Of a stretch of 64,000 nucleotides of DNA, positions 32,915 to 61,279 are shown piece by piece. The notes under the pieces are model-generated. The model saw only the letters and a list, made by a program, of their open reading frames with translations, was not told the origin of the DNA and made no database searches. Within the stretch, counting starts at the first letter, position 1. The number at the start of each line of letters is the position of its first letter. A program made the translations under genes and the position numbers. The stretch comes from Candidatus Bathycorpusculum termitum (GTDB taxonomy: Archaea > Thermoproteota > Bathyarchaeia > Bathyarchaeales > Bathycorpusculaceae): positions 1-64,000 of the forward strand of contig JAIRTW010000056.1 of the NCBI GenBank assembly GCA_031254875.1, written 5' to 3'.

Positions 32915-33760
32915 TTATCGGAAGATATCTTTCTCTTTTGGGCGCATAAGCACAGTTACGGCTGTATCTTCAGTGGGCTGATAATTGTAGCCCCGTACGA
33001 TGGCCGCTGGTATGCCCTCGCTGGCTTGCCCAATCACTAGCTCCGCCGCAGAAGCTAGCTCATCCGCTATAGCTGTTTGTTTTATTCTAAGTACGTAGCC
33101 AAATAGGTCTTTTTCGCCCCGCCTGTCACGGATCGGCTTAAACCCTGCGGTGCCAATTGCCACGTTGATTTCACCCATCCGAAATGGTCTGCCATGTGTA
33201 TCTGAAACAATCACCGCCACTTCTGCACCGCTGAGCCGCTTAATTTCTGCTCGAATACTTACAGCGGAGGCGTTGGGGTTTTTGGGCAAAGGCACCACGT
33301 TGTGATCTCCGCTGACGTTGGAGCGGTCAACGCCGGCATTGGCGCAGATGACGCCGCTGTTGGTTTCAGTTATGATGCTGTTCTGTCCTATGCGTACGAT
33401 GTCTTTGGTTTCCTGTAGTATAACTTCAACAAGTGCAGGGTCTTTACTGGTTTGATTGGCGATTTCCACCGCACGCTGGGACGGTTTAACTGTGTTGAGA
33501 TCTACGACGGTACCCTCGGATTTGGAGACCACCACATGCGTAACCACCACAACATCGCCCGGCTGGATTGGAGTGTTTTGCTTCTCTGCAGCCTCAACAA
33601 TCATTTTGCCCAAGTTGTCACCTGATTGTATTAGTGGTAGTCCCTCAACGGGAATCACTTGAATAGTGTTCGTGATGTTATCTCTCCTATTAGAATGCCT
33701 AACTGCCCCTGAACTTAAGGTTTGCTTCTGATGTGTCTGGGATGAGTTGGGAACCTTCAT
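32915..33760 (-). CDS. cofE: coenzyme F420-0:L-glutamate ligase
   Basis: Adds glutamates to F420-0 using GTP. IQVIPVEGLPLIQSGDNLG is the usual CofE N-terminus, with VVVTHVVVSKSEG, VSDTHGRPFRMGEINVAIG and the C-terminal IVRGYNY following. The given span uses the track ATG at 33760, which adds about 28 polar residues with no counterpart in the family. A better ribosome binding site, TAGGAGAG, lies 5 nt before ATC-ACG at 33676-33671, so initiation at ATC (33676) would yield a protein of normal length starting MTNTIQVIPVEGL. No ATG, GTG or TTG is available at that place. Function is certain, start is not. Confidence 0.9.
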   Translation of the reverse strand: MKVPNSSQTHQKQTLSSGAVRHSNRRDNITNTIQVIPVEGLPLIQSGDNLGKMIVEAAEKQNTPIQPGDVVVVTHVVVSKSEGTVVDLNTVKPSQRAVEIANQTSKDPALVEVILQETKDIVRIGQNSIITETNSGVICANAGVDRSNVSGDHNVVPLPKNPNASAVSIRAEIKRLSGAEVAVIVSDTHGRPFRMGEINVAIGTAGFKPIRDRRGEKDLFGYVLRIKQTAIADELASAAELVIGQASEGIPAAIVRGYNYQPTEDTAVTVLMRPKEKDIFR

Positions 33761-49276: not shown

Positions 49277-49559
49277 TGATAAAGCCCCTGGACAAAAACA
49301 ACACTTGTTTTATTCAAGTAGCCGTTGTAACTTATAGAGTTGTTACTCAAATTAAATTCCATAGAATAAAAGTACAGCCAGGAAAGATACTGAATCTGTC
49401 GATTTTTGTATCGATCCTTTTACTGTTTTCTGTGTCCAAGTTGTCGTTAAGTTCAATCTGGTAGATGTCAAAAACCCCATGGGTTTTAGTTAAATTTGTA
49501 CTAAAAATTGATAAACCCCCTCCGTTACTTACATGCATACTTAACGTGAGAAGGGACCA
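49277..49559. other. leader/promoter region of the purF operon, no gene seen
   Basis: About 280 nt. GTTAAATTTGTACTAAAAATTG near 49490-49511 could hold the TATA box. The ATG at 49533 is in the purF frame but is closed by TAA three codons later. Track ORFs here (49276-49464 plus, 49347-49667 minus) look non-coding. Confidence 0.4.
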
Positions 49560-51044
49560 ATCACGGGCTGCGGTATATTTGGCGCAATAAACTATGAAAA
49601 TCAACCTGTCTTCCCCTATATTTACTGGGGACTGAGGGCACAGAATCACAGGGGACACCAGTCTCATGGCTTTCTCACATACAGCAAAGGCGAATTTTAT
49701 CCATACAAAAACCTTGACTTAGTGCCAAAGGTGAAGAGTAGCGCCATAAACGAATGGTTCAGCCGTCTACCTGGTTCGATTGGTATCGGAAACGTCCGCT
49801 ACACCACCTCGGGTAAATGCGACGATATCTCTATCGTACAAGGCACCCAGCCCTTCACAGCCGCCTTAGACGGTATAAAAGTCGCTTTATCCTTCAACGG
49901 TAACATCGTGAATACCCAGCCGCTCAAAAAAGAGATGGCCGAGAATTTCCCAGACTTTATCTATAACTGCGATTCTGACCTGGTTTGCCACAAAATGCTC
50001 CTTGGACTCAAACAGACCAACGATTTGGTGCTGGCCGCCAAAGGCGTCATGGAAAGTCTAGATGGTGCATTTAGCGTCACAGGAATAACCGGAGACGGCA
50101 CCTTCTTTGCCTTCAAAGACCCCCATGGAATAAAACCGCTCTGTGCTGGACATGACCCCAACAGTAAAACATACGCATTTTCATCTGAAACCGTTAGCCT
50201 CGATATGAACAGTTTCGTCCGAGACTTTGAACTAAACCCCGGGGAACTCGTTATCGCGTCCAAAACCGGCTTCAAACGTATCCAAATTATCCCAAATCCA
50301 AGGCATGCATTCTGTGCTTTTGAGTTTGCTTATTTTGCGCGACCTGACTCGTTTTTCAACGGCAAATACGTCTATGAAATCCGTGAAGATTTTGGTCGCA
50401 ACATAGTCAAAGAATACCCTCAAATCATTAAAGACAGCGATATCATTATGTCGGTGCCTGAAACCGGCGATGACTCCGCTATGGGTGTTCATGAGGCGTC
50501 TGGTCTCCGTTGGGAACGTGCTTCGCGCCGTCACCGTTATGTCACAGAACGTGCTTTCATTCTGCTAAACGCCGAACGTTACTCCACCATAGATAAGAAA
50601 ATTAACATTTTAGCTACCAAAATTAAAGACAAACGTGTCATCATCACCGAAGACAGTATCGTCCGCGGCGACACGACTAGAGTTATCATCGAGAAGATGC
50701 GGGAGGCCGGCGCAAAAAAGGTATATGTCTTTGTCACTTTCCCCCGCATCATCGGTCCCTGTTTCTATGGTATCGATATGTCCAGCTACGGCCAGCTCGT
50801 CGGTAGCAGGCACAGCGCGGAGGAGATTGCTAAAATCATTGACGCTGACGGTGTCTTCTATCAATCCCTTGAAAACTTACTCAAGGCAATAGGTAAAAAA
50901 GAAGACGAGCTTTGCATAGCATGTGTTACCGGCAAGTATCCTACGCAATGTGCACAAAAAATCGCTGATGTCATGAAGAAACGTTTCCAAGATGGTTATG
51001 ATGAAAAGGGGCGCGTCTACGAAAATGAAGATGTTCAGCCGTAA
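49560..51044 (+). CDS. purF: amidophosphoribosyltransferase, non-AUG start
   Basis: First step of purine synthesis: PRPP plus glutamine gives phosphoribosylamine. The track begins at 49722 and lacks the nucleophilic cysteine, yet the same frame continues upstream as GCGIFGAINYENQPVF then NHRGHQSHGF, the true glutaminase N-terminus. An in-frame TAA at 49542 bounds it, and between it and the Cys codon (49569) there is no ATG, GTG or TTG. The best site is AAGGGA followed by ATC-ACG-GGC-TGC, so I start at ATC (49560); ACG at 49563 is the alternative. Downstream, IVRGDTT is the PRPP loop. ATC as the initiator is inferred. Confidence 0.85.
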   Translation: MTGCGIFGAINYENQPVFPYIYWGLRAQNHRGHQSHGFLTYSKGEFYPYKNLDLVPKVKSSAINEWFSRLPGSIGIGNVRYTTSGKCDDISIVQGTQPFTAALDGIKVALSFNGNIVNTQPLKKEMAENFPDFIYNCDSDLVCHKMLLGLKQTNDLVLAAKGVMESLDGAFSVTGITGDGTFFAFKDPHGIKPLCAGHDPNSKTYAFSSETVSLDMNSFVRDFELNPGELVIASKTGFKRIQIIPNPRHAFCAFEFAYFARPDSFFNGKYVYEIREDFGRNIVKEYPQIIKDSDIIMSVPETGDDSAMGVHEASGLRWERASRRHRYVTERAFILLNAERYSTIDKKINILATKIKDKRVIITEDSIVRGDTTRVIIEKMREAGAKKVYVFVTFPRIIGPCFYGIDMSSYGQLVGSRHSAEEIAKIIDADGVFYQSLENLLKAIGKKEDELCIACVTGKYPTQCAQKIADVMKKRFQDGYDEKGRVYENEDVQP

Positions 51045-51093: not shown

Positions 51094-52509
51094 ATGGAAA
51101 GAATAGGTGTCCTGCTGGTTTCTTACGGTGCGCGAGAAGTTGCCATGGCCGATGCGCTTCTAAAAAGCCCAAACCACAAAGTCGAACTCTACATCGCCGA
51201 TAAGCAATGCAACCCTTTCAATGCCAAATACGCAACTAAGCACACGGTTATTCCAAGTCTTAATATCGCGGAAGTCTGCAAGTTTGCCATGGCAAACAAG
51301 GATAATCTGGATTTTGTTTTGGTGGGTTCTGAGAGTCCCATAATCAAAGGTATCCGTGATTTAATCGAGACGGAAACTGGTATTCCCGTTATCTGCCCCA
51401 AAAAGGCATATGCTATTGAAGAAAGTAAAGTGACACAGCGTATTCTCTTCGAGGAGATTGCACCCGAAGCTAATCCGCGCTTCAAAGTTTTTGACCCCGC
51501 CGAATACAAGACCAAAGCAGACGCGAAAGTAGCGGTTTACAAATGGCTCGATGAACTCGATAACCAGGCCGTCGTTAAACCCGACAAACCCGCTTTGGGT
51601 AAGGGTGTCGGTGTTTGGGGAGACCACTTCGCCAACCGCGAGCAGCTCTTTGAGCATTTTCTCTCCAGTTTTGAGGCCAGTTCAGTTATCATAGAAGAAA
51701 AGGTGCCTGGCGAAGAATCCAGTTGCATGGGCTTCTGTGACGGCAAACACTTCATTCTACTCCCCGACACCCGCGACTACAAACGCGCCTTTGATGATGA
51801 CCGGGGACCAAACACGGGTGGCATGGGTTCCTACAAAGACACAAAGGACTATCTGCCTTTTCTCACAGCTACAGACCGCAAGGCCGAGCTGGCGTTAGCG
51901 CAGAAGATTTTTGAGGGCTGGAAGAAAAAAATCCCCGATGATACCGCACTCCGAGGAGTGCCGCTCTACCTTGCATTTATGCATACCGGCAAGGGCATAA
52001 AAATCCTTGAAATCAACAGCCGCCCCGGCGACCCCGAAATCATGAACCTGCTTCCCATAATAAAAGACGACTTTGTAGATATCTGCCTTCGCATGGTGGA
52101 CGGTACTCTTAAAGATGTTGCAATGGAAAAATCAGCGACGGTGTTAACCTACAAGGTTCCCCCCGATTATGGTGGATATTCAGAAGTATATGCTGATAAA
52201 CTCGACAAAGCTGCCGTCGGCACTCCCGTTGACTTAACAAAGGCTGAAGCCTTAAGCAAAAAGTACGGCGACAAAATCCGCATTTATCCAGGCTCCATGG
52301 AAGTCCGCGGCGGCAAAAACTATGCACTCAAATCCCGAGCCGTCGGCATTCTCGGTATCGGTGAATCCATAGAGGAAGCCCGCCAAATCAGCCAGGAAGG
52401 TGCCAAAGCCATCACCGGCGGCGCATTGTGGAACCGCACTGATGTAGCTGCCAAAAAACACATAACAAAAAGTGCCACTAATATGGAGAAATTGAGATGC
52501 AAAACCTAA
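51094..52509 (+). CDS. purD: phosphoribosylamine-glycine ligase
   Basis: 471 residues. N-terminal Rossmann-like domain (LLVSYGAREVAMADALLKS), ATP-grasp core with VVKPDKPALGKGVGVWG and EEKVPGEESSCMGFCDG, RGPNTGGMGSY, and EINSRPGDPEIMNLLP as the metal-binding end. It joins the unstable PurF product to glycine. The usual bacterial glycine-rich loop is slightly altered but the catalytic parts are complete. It follows purF after about 50 nt and overlaps the next gene by 13 nt. Confidence 0.93.
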   Translation: MERIGVLLVSYGAREVAMADALLKSPNHKVELYIADKQCNPFNAKYATKHTVIPSLNIAEVCKFAMANKDNLDFVLVGSESPIIKGIRDLIETETGIPVICPKKAYAIEESKVTQRILFEEIAPEANPRFKVFDPAEYKTKADAKVAVYKWLDELDNQAVVKPDKPALGKGVGVWGDHFANREQLFEHFLSSFEASSVIIEEKVPGEESSCMGFCDGKHFILLPDTRDYKRAFDDDRGPNTGGMGSYKDTKDYLPFLTATDRKAELALAQKIFEGWKKKIPDDTALRGVPLYLAFMHTGKGIKILEINSRPGDPEIMNLLPIIKDDFVDICLRMVDGTLKDVAMEKSATVLTYKVPPDYGGYSEVYADKLDKAAVGTPVDLTKAEALSKKYGDKIRIYPGSMEVRGGKNYALKSRAVGILGIGESIEEARQISQEGAKAITGGALWNRTDVAAKKHITKSATNMEKLRCKT

Positions 52510-61032: not shown

Positions 61033-61203
61033 CAGTCTGATTGTTCTATGTTACGTTAACCGGTTTATTTATTTTTACCGTATGGGTGATGGATGTACCA
61101 ATCGAGGAGACTAAAAAGCAAAATCGTTGCATGCGTTTTTCTCGTTTTAGTGTATGATGGGATTTGATCAACAAAACCCGCGCCAAATATATTTAATTTT
61201 TAG

Positions 61204-61279
61204 TAGCGGGGAGTAGATTTGAACTACTGATCTCTGGGTTATGAGCCCAGCGGGTTGATCCTGGCTACCCCACCCCGCT
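61204..61279 (-). tRNA. initiator tRNA-Met (CAT)
   Basis: 76 nt, no intron. Acceptor AGCGGGG pairs with CCCCGCT, discriminator A. The anticodon arm CTGGG-CTCATAA-CCCAG has the three consecutive G-C pairs of initiators, and the T arm is AGTAG-TTCAAAT-CTACT. The A1-U72 pair also fits an archaeal initiator. CCA is not encoded. TTAATATC about 50 nt upstream on the minus strand may be its TATA box. Confidence 0.93.

Follow-up and report, generated by a model that had tools for sequence, protein, structure and literature searches.

The purF locus

The DNA analyzed here, referred to as the window, is a 64,000-nucleotide stretch of a single contig from Candidatus Bathycorpusculum termitum. The genome is a fragmented MAG of 2.3 Mb in 123 contigs, and those of its close relatives that bear a name belong to Candidatus Bathycorpusculum, class Bathyarchaeia. 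The following features of the window define the purF locus.

49510 to 49515, + strand: GATAAA, the TATA-like promoter box of purF, whose spacing to the Cys codon is constant in both start types
49542 to 49544, + strand: in-frame TAA, the upstream limit of the purF frame as read in the sequence
49551 to 49556, + strand: AAGGGA, a purine motif weakly resembling an SD sequence, 6 nt ahead of the ACG
49563 to 49565, + strand: ACG, proposed purF start codon from the homologous-codon comparison of 50 sequences
49566 to 49568, + strand: GGC (Gly -1), second codon of purF, almost invariant (GGC in 48/50)
49563 to 51044, + strand: purF coding sequence from the proposed start, with the catalytic Cys at 49569
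51094 to 52509, + strand: purD, with a normal ATG start (TIGR00877 and GARS domains)

The purF region is the single purF copy in the genome. Its product matches the entire NCBIfam model TIGR01134 (residues 9 to 466, E=1.5e-92), with a score of 311 bits that is below the model's 350-bit cut-off, and contains the PRPP-binding motif TEDSIVRGDTTR. The best PDB matches are also PurF, and the Bacillus subtilis and Escherichia coli structures align with it starting at the Cys. In this alignment, Cys 49569 corresponds to residue 1 of 1ao0, 1gph, and 1ecb, which would place it at the N terminus of the mature enzyme. On the 3′ side of purF, the gene order is purD, a HAD-type phosphatase gene, ftr, and a PfkB kinase gene.

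An earlier note on this DNA had reported that purF is intact downstream and has no in-frame ATG, GTG, or TTG between the TAA at 49542 to 49544 and the catalytic Cys codon, TGC at 49569 to 49571. Both observations hold. The TAA is followed by CGT GAG AAG GGA CCA ATC ACG GGC TGC, and the frame is open from the CGT at 49545 to the stop at 51044. The first canonical codon in this frame is the GTG at 49722, 51 codons past the catalytic Cys.

Start codons of purF in relatives

purF sequences were taken from the genus, family, and order and aligned using the Cys codon as the anchor. Two start types were apparent. The first, ATG(-8), has an ATG exactly eight codons ahead of the Cys; it is the type of most other Bathyarchaeia and is present in nearly all outgroups. 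The second, at codon -2, is found in Ca. Bathycorpusculum and several sister genera. Among the 50 distinct purF sequences from this group, codon -2 was ATA in 40, ACG in 4 (including the genome analyzed), and ATG in 6. Thus, the place of the codon is conserved, and its non-AUG forms are each one position off AUG: the first base is always A, the second is T or C, and the third is A or G. The codon that follows is GGC in 48 sequences and GGT in 2, and then comes the Cys codon, TG(C/T). A total of 44 species-level sequences, that of the genome analyzed included, have no AUG at the homologous position. In 35 of these 44, no ATG, GTG, or TTG was present ahead of the Cys as far as the next in-frame stop or within the 90 nt examined, and the other nine have such codons at non-conserved sites, eight of them 12 or more codons before the Cys and one, the TTG of L112, at -7.

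The six ATG(-2) sequences bear on a point raised in the earlier note, which had regarded relatives with ATG at this position as an argument against non-AUG initiation. Such relatives do exist, but they are a minority, and they are scattered over different parts of the tree, as would be expected for a codon that may be either AUG or near-cognate. The note had also considered a miscalled base or an indel. Since the genome is a fragmented MAG, a decayed purF, or an error in sequencing or assembly, might be suspected from this sequence taken singly. However, the same codon is non-AUG in 44 species-level genomes from many studies, and the gene, present as the only copy, has an intact frame, 63 to 91% identity to its relatives, and ordinary synonymous variation. 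Because dozens of independent genomes share the non-AUG codon, sequence error is excluded, and the chance that error or decay explains the missing AUG is close to nil.

Upstream of codon -2, the sequences do not behave as coding DNA. In-frame stops occur at -3 (L089), at -4 (L020, L058, L081, and L083), at -5 (L028, an ATG species), and also at -7. The spacing between the GGG motif and codon -2 shifts by single nucleotides among relatives. The stops at -3 and -4 together with the 1-nt length changes mean that the leader is non-coding. A good example of this is the group of L089, L020, L058, L081, and L083, in which the stops leave AUA as essentially the sole possible purF start.

The comparison also identifies which codon is used in the genome analyzed. 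Non-AUG initiation of purF, as proposed in the earlier note, is strongly supported by it, but the codon named there, ATC at 49560, is the wrong one. AUC is a near-cognate codon and the pair ATC ACG is present in purF of G000 and G027, yet in relatives the position of the ATC is occupied by ACA, AAC, CAT, AAA, and others, and by a stop in L089. Nor is AAGGGA well placed for it, as had been thought: the motif is just 3 nt from the ATC and 6 nt from the ACG. A start one codon upstream, at ATC 49560, is therefore very improbable. We assign the start to ACG 49563 because the -2 codon is conserved and preceded by the SD-like motif, and because stops and 1-nt changes lie upstream of it.

Ile, Met, and Thr are also found at -2 in outgroup PurF, where they are ordinary residues, so the identity of codon -2 alone is no proof of a start. 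Third-position pairwise identity in purF was 0.92 for the GGC and 0.67 for the start codon, compared to 0.35 for fourfold sites, so that conservation here extends to the nucleotides themselves. The commonest codon had a share of at most 0.65 at 22 invariant internal Gly columns of PurF, compared to 48 of 50 for GGC at Gly -1. The consensus RNA structure around the start is weak (-1.6 kcal/mol). As a separate observation on codon usage, the GGC at 49566 to 49568 is far more conserved than every internal Gly codon compared in PurF.

Promoter, leader, and origin of the derived start

The median distance from the TATA-like box to the Cys codon is 57 nt in the ATA/ACG/ATG(-2) group and 54 nt in the ATG(-8) group. 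Since the box is at the same distance in both types, ATG(-8) lies about 30 nt from it, which fits a leaderless mRNA. The ancestral Bathyarchaeia purF mRNA was thus apparently leaderless and, with its box about 30 nt before AUG -8, resembles archaeal leaderless AUG mRNAs. In contrast, the derived purF lacks an AUG, and its short leader contains a purine motif; judged from the spacing, this leader would be roughly 20 nt long if transcribed from the same promoter.

Several features of this leader are conserved. First, G at -15 is present in 48 of the 50 derived sequences. Second, other genera have GGAGG, a good SD, or AGGGG as the SD-like motif, which is weak in Bathycorpusculum (AAGGGA, about 4 pairs); the anti-SD in the 16S of the genome analyzed, CACCTCCT, is normal. 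Third, comparison of outgroup sequences, often ATG GGA GAG CAG TTA AAA ATC/ATA GCx TGC, with derived ones, for example GAGGAGGGGAATTAAAAATAGGCTGT, places the purine motif where the old start and the next codons had been. This suggests a path in which the ancestral AUG at codon -8 would have been lost and replaced by the GGG/GGAGG motif, and initiation would have shifted 18 nt downstream onto an existing Ile/Thr/Met codon while the TATA-like box stayed in place. Three changes between the start types are counted on the tree, although the hypothesis that the -2 start arose only once was not rejected (p-AU 0.09).

The same upstream region was considered as a source of other starts. An upstream AUG, or a start in another frame, followed by a frameshift or stop readthrough into purF could make use of the ATG at 49533 (ATG CAT ACT TAA) or the out-of-frame GTG at 49546. 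However, neither is conserved, stops and indels vary between species, and the TATA spacing predicts a transcription start that coincides with the ATG at 49533 or lies downstream of it, making this route extremely unlikely. A second way to obtain a normal start would be to create an AUG in the RNA, either by editing (e.g., C-to-U, ACG to AUG) or by processing (e.g., intron removal). In plant organelles, ACG start codons are edited to AUG, a precedent for a gene that, like purF here, has ACG in the start position. Editing sites that enable translation are treated in PMC12548569. Against this, the purF codon is also AUA, which is beyond repair by C-to-U editing and would require another chemistry (A-to-I). 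As for intron removal, there is no conserved upstream exon, and, with about 57 nt separating the TATA-like box from the Cys, the leader is short. Production of an AUG by editing or processing is thus highly unlikely.

Translation machinery

The initiator tRNA of this genome is encoded in the window.

61203 to 61279, - strand: initiator tRNA-Met(CAU), standard (ARAGORN)

It carries the GGG/CCC anticodon stem and A1-U72, which are among the features listed for archaeal initiators (PMC6412873). It is the only initiator-like match in the genome, whatever the anticodon, and so no altered initiator tRNA was found next to this single CAU initiator in the genome analyzed. The same tRNA sequence is found, identical, in the G001 and G027 contigs. 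The initiation factor aIF1 is ordinary and was found in 29 of 32 genomes. Because both the tRNA and aIF1 are normal, the near-cognate purF start is most simply read by the ordinary initiator. The efficiency of such initiation could be very low, since archaeal aIF1 destabilizes complexes on non-AUG mRNA (PMC6237735). When the ATG of E. coli rpoS is changed to ATA, RpoS is still made, at a level down by up to 5-fold, and a figure of about 1% is quoted in the same study for the efficiency of an ATA start (PMC12864459). In that E. coli O104:H4 mutant, as proposed for purF, an ATA start yields protein at a lower level; however, the rpoS change is a laboratory mutation in a bacterium, whereas the purF ATA is a conserved natural state.

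cofE and the screen for a shared rule

A second gene of the window has a non-canonical start.

33671 to 33673, - strand: ACG, probable cofE start codon, behind AGGAGA at 33683 to 33688

The gene was identified as cofE by TIGR01916 (E=1.1e-87). At its start position, ACG is found in 8 genomes of the genus, TTG in G019, and ATG in others. Three genomes have no canonical codon in the region, which reads ATC ACA in G001 and ATC CCA in G005 and G025. An in-frame ATG at 33758 on the - strand adds a 28-residue extension before the ACG (region 33671 to 33758). This extension is probably not translated, because stops interrupt it in relatives.

The earlier note had taken the resemblance of the purF and cofE starts as a sign of a possible shared rule. 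The cofE case itself stands, with its ACG in 8 genomes of the genus, but the rule does not extend to the genome. A screen of start columns covered 356 ortholog clusters (1039 genes) in about 2.4 Mb from nine genomes, after an earlier screen for such a rule in 146 clusters. A canonical start column was common to 314 of the 356 clusters, and on inspection the remaining ones were displaced starts, frameshifts, or single-genome oddities, except for purF and cofE. No conserved non-canonical start beyond these two was found in the 356 clusters. A genome-wide ACG/ATA start rule was therefore ruled out by the two screens, and the non-AUG starts are gene specific.

Other candidates were set aside. A first list of non-AUG genes, made from raw pairwise alignments, was overrun by shadow ORFs. 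Single-genome oddities were left uncounted as ambiguous or frameshift-like: argG and an MBL-like gene with CTG in G001, cdhD in G023, and ATA candidates in G021, where it follows a 1-nt deletion, and in G027, where an in-frame GTG lies two codons ahead. In argG of Ca. B. acetigenerans (G001, contig C1 near 77296), a 4-nt tandem duplication of AATA just past the ATG breaks the frame, which is either a real frameshift or an assembly error. In G023 (contig C2), a 1-nt insertion displaces the GTG with which the gene for a CdhD-like acetyl-CoA decarbonylase subunit starts in other genomes, and the first in-frame near-cognate codon is ACG; either a frameshift or a third case of non-AUG initiation might account for this.

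Discussion

Comparison of homologous sequences shows the position of the purF start, the identities of its codon, and the loss of upstream coding. From these we infer that initiation, with Met, takes place at codon -2, and it is very likely that purF of Ca. Bathycorpusculum and its sister genera is translated from a near-cognate AUA or ACG two codons before the catalytic Cys. The short purine-rich leader would place the ordinary CAU initiator tRNA on this codon. The product would be Met-Gly-Cys..., and removal of Met-Gly, two residues, would leave an N-terminal Cys. N-terminal peptides fitting a start at 49563 would be (M)GCGIFG..., GCGIFG..., or CGIFGAINYENQPVFPYIYWGLR. In B. subtilis, the catalytic Cys of PurF is freed by the removal of an 11-residue propeptide. 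The Bathyarchaeia ancestor, with an 8-residue leader peptide ahead of the Cys, is similar in this respect, whereas the leader peptide of the derived lineage is predicted to be Met-Gly only and presumably is processed away.

Initiation at AUA or ACG is expected to reduce purF translation. Damping of the expression of the purF operon, suggested in the earlier note, is a plausible and reasonable consequence. ATA has persisted at a codon that can clearly be ATG, which suggests that selection has favored a weak or regulated start; lower translation may be the selected effect. A known case is infC (IF3) of enterobacteria, in which a phylogenetically conserved AUU start keeps expression low and is autoregulated by IF3. 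Like infC, purF is a housekeeping gene with a conserved near-cognate start. However, infC is bacterial and uses AUU, whereas purF uses AUA or ACG in an archaeal setting with aIF1 and has no known feedback. Autoregulation of the infC type does not apply, as purF does not encode an initiation factor and aIF1 is the product of a separate gene. It is conceivable, if on balance doubtful, that in this Bathyarchaeia lineage purF, which acts at the committed step of purine synthesis, is held by selection to AUA/ACG initiation, which would act as a translational throttle or would sense how stringent initiation is (through aIF1, aIF2, or the supply of Met-tRNAi). In this scenario, such initiation might have arisen more than once, and cofE would be under a similar control.

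No report of a conserved AUA or ACG start in an archaeal housekeeping gene was found in the literature available as open-access text. Such a start, on a gene of an essential pathway in dozens of archaeal species, would be evidence that near-cognate initiation can become a stable, selected state in archaea. The purF series would represent a stepwise shift in which a leaderless AUG gave way to a near-cognate start that depends on a leader, and it offers a natural system in which to test the start-codon stringency set by aIF1 and aIF2. There is also a consequence for annotation. Gene callers limited to ATG, GTG, and TTG would begin PurF 51 codons past the catalytic Cys in this genome and 2 to 122 codons past it in relatives; therefore, an intact PurF glutaminase would seem to be absent and the enzyme would be misread as truncated.
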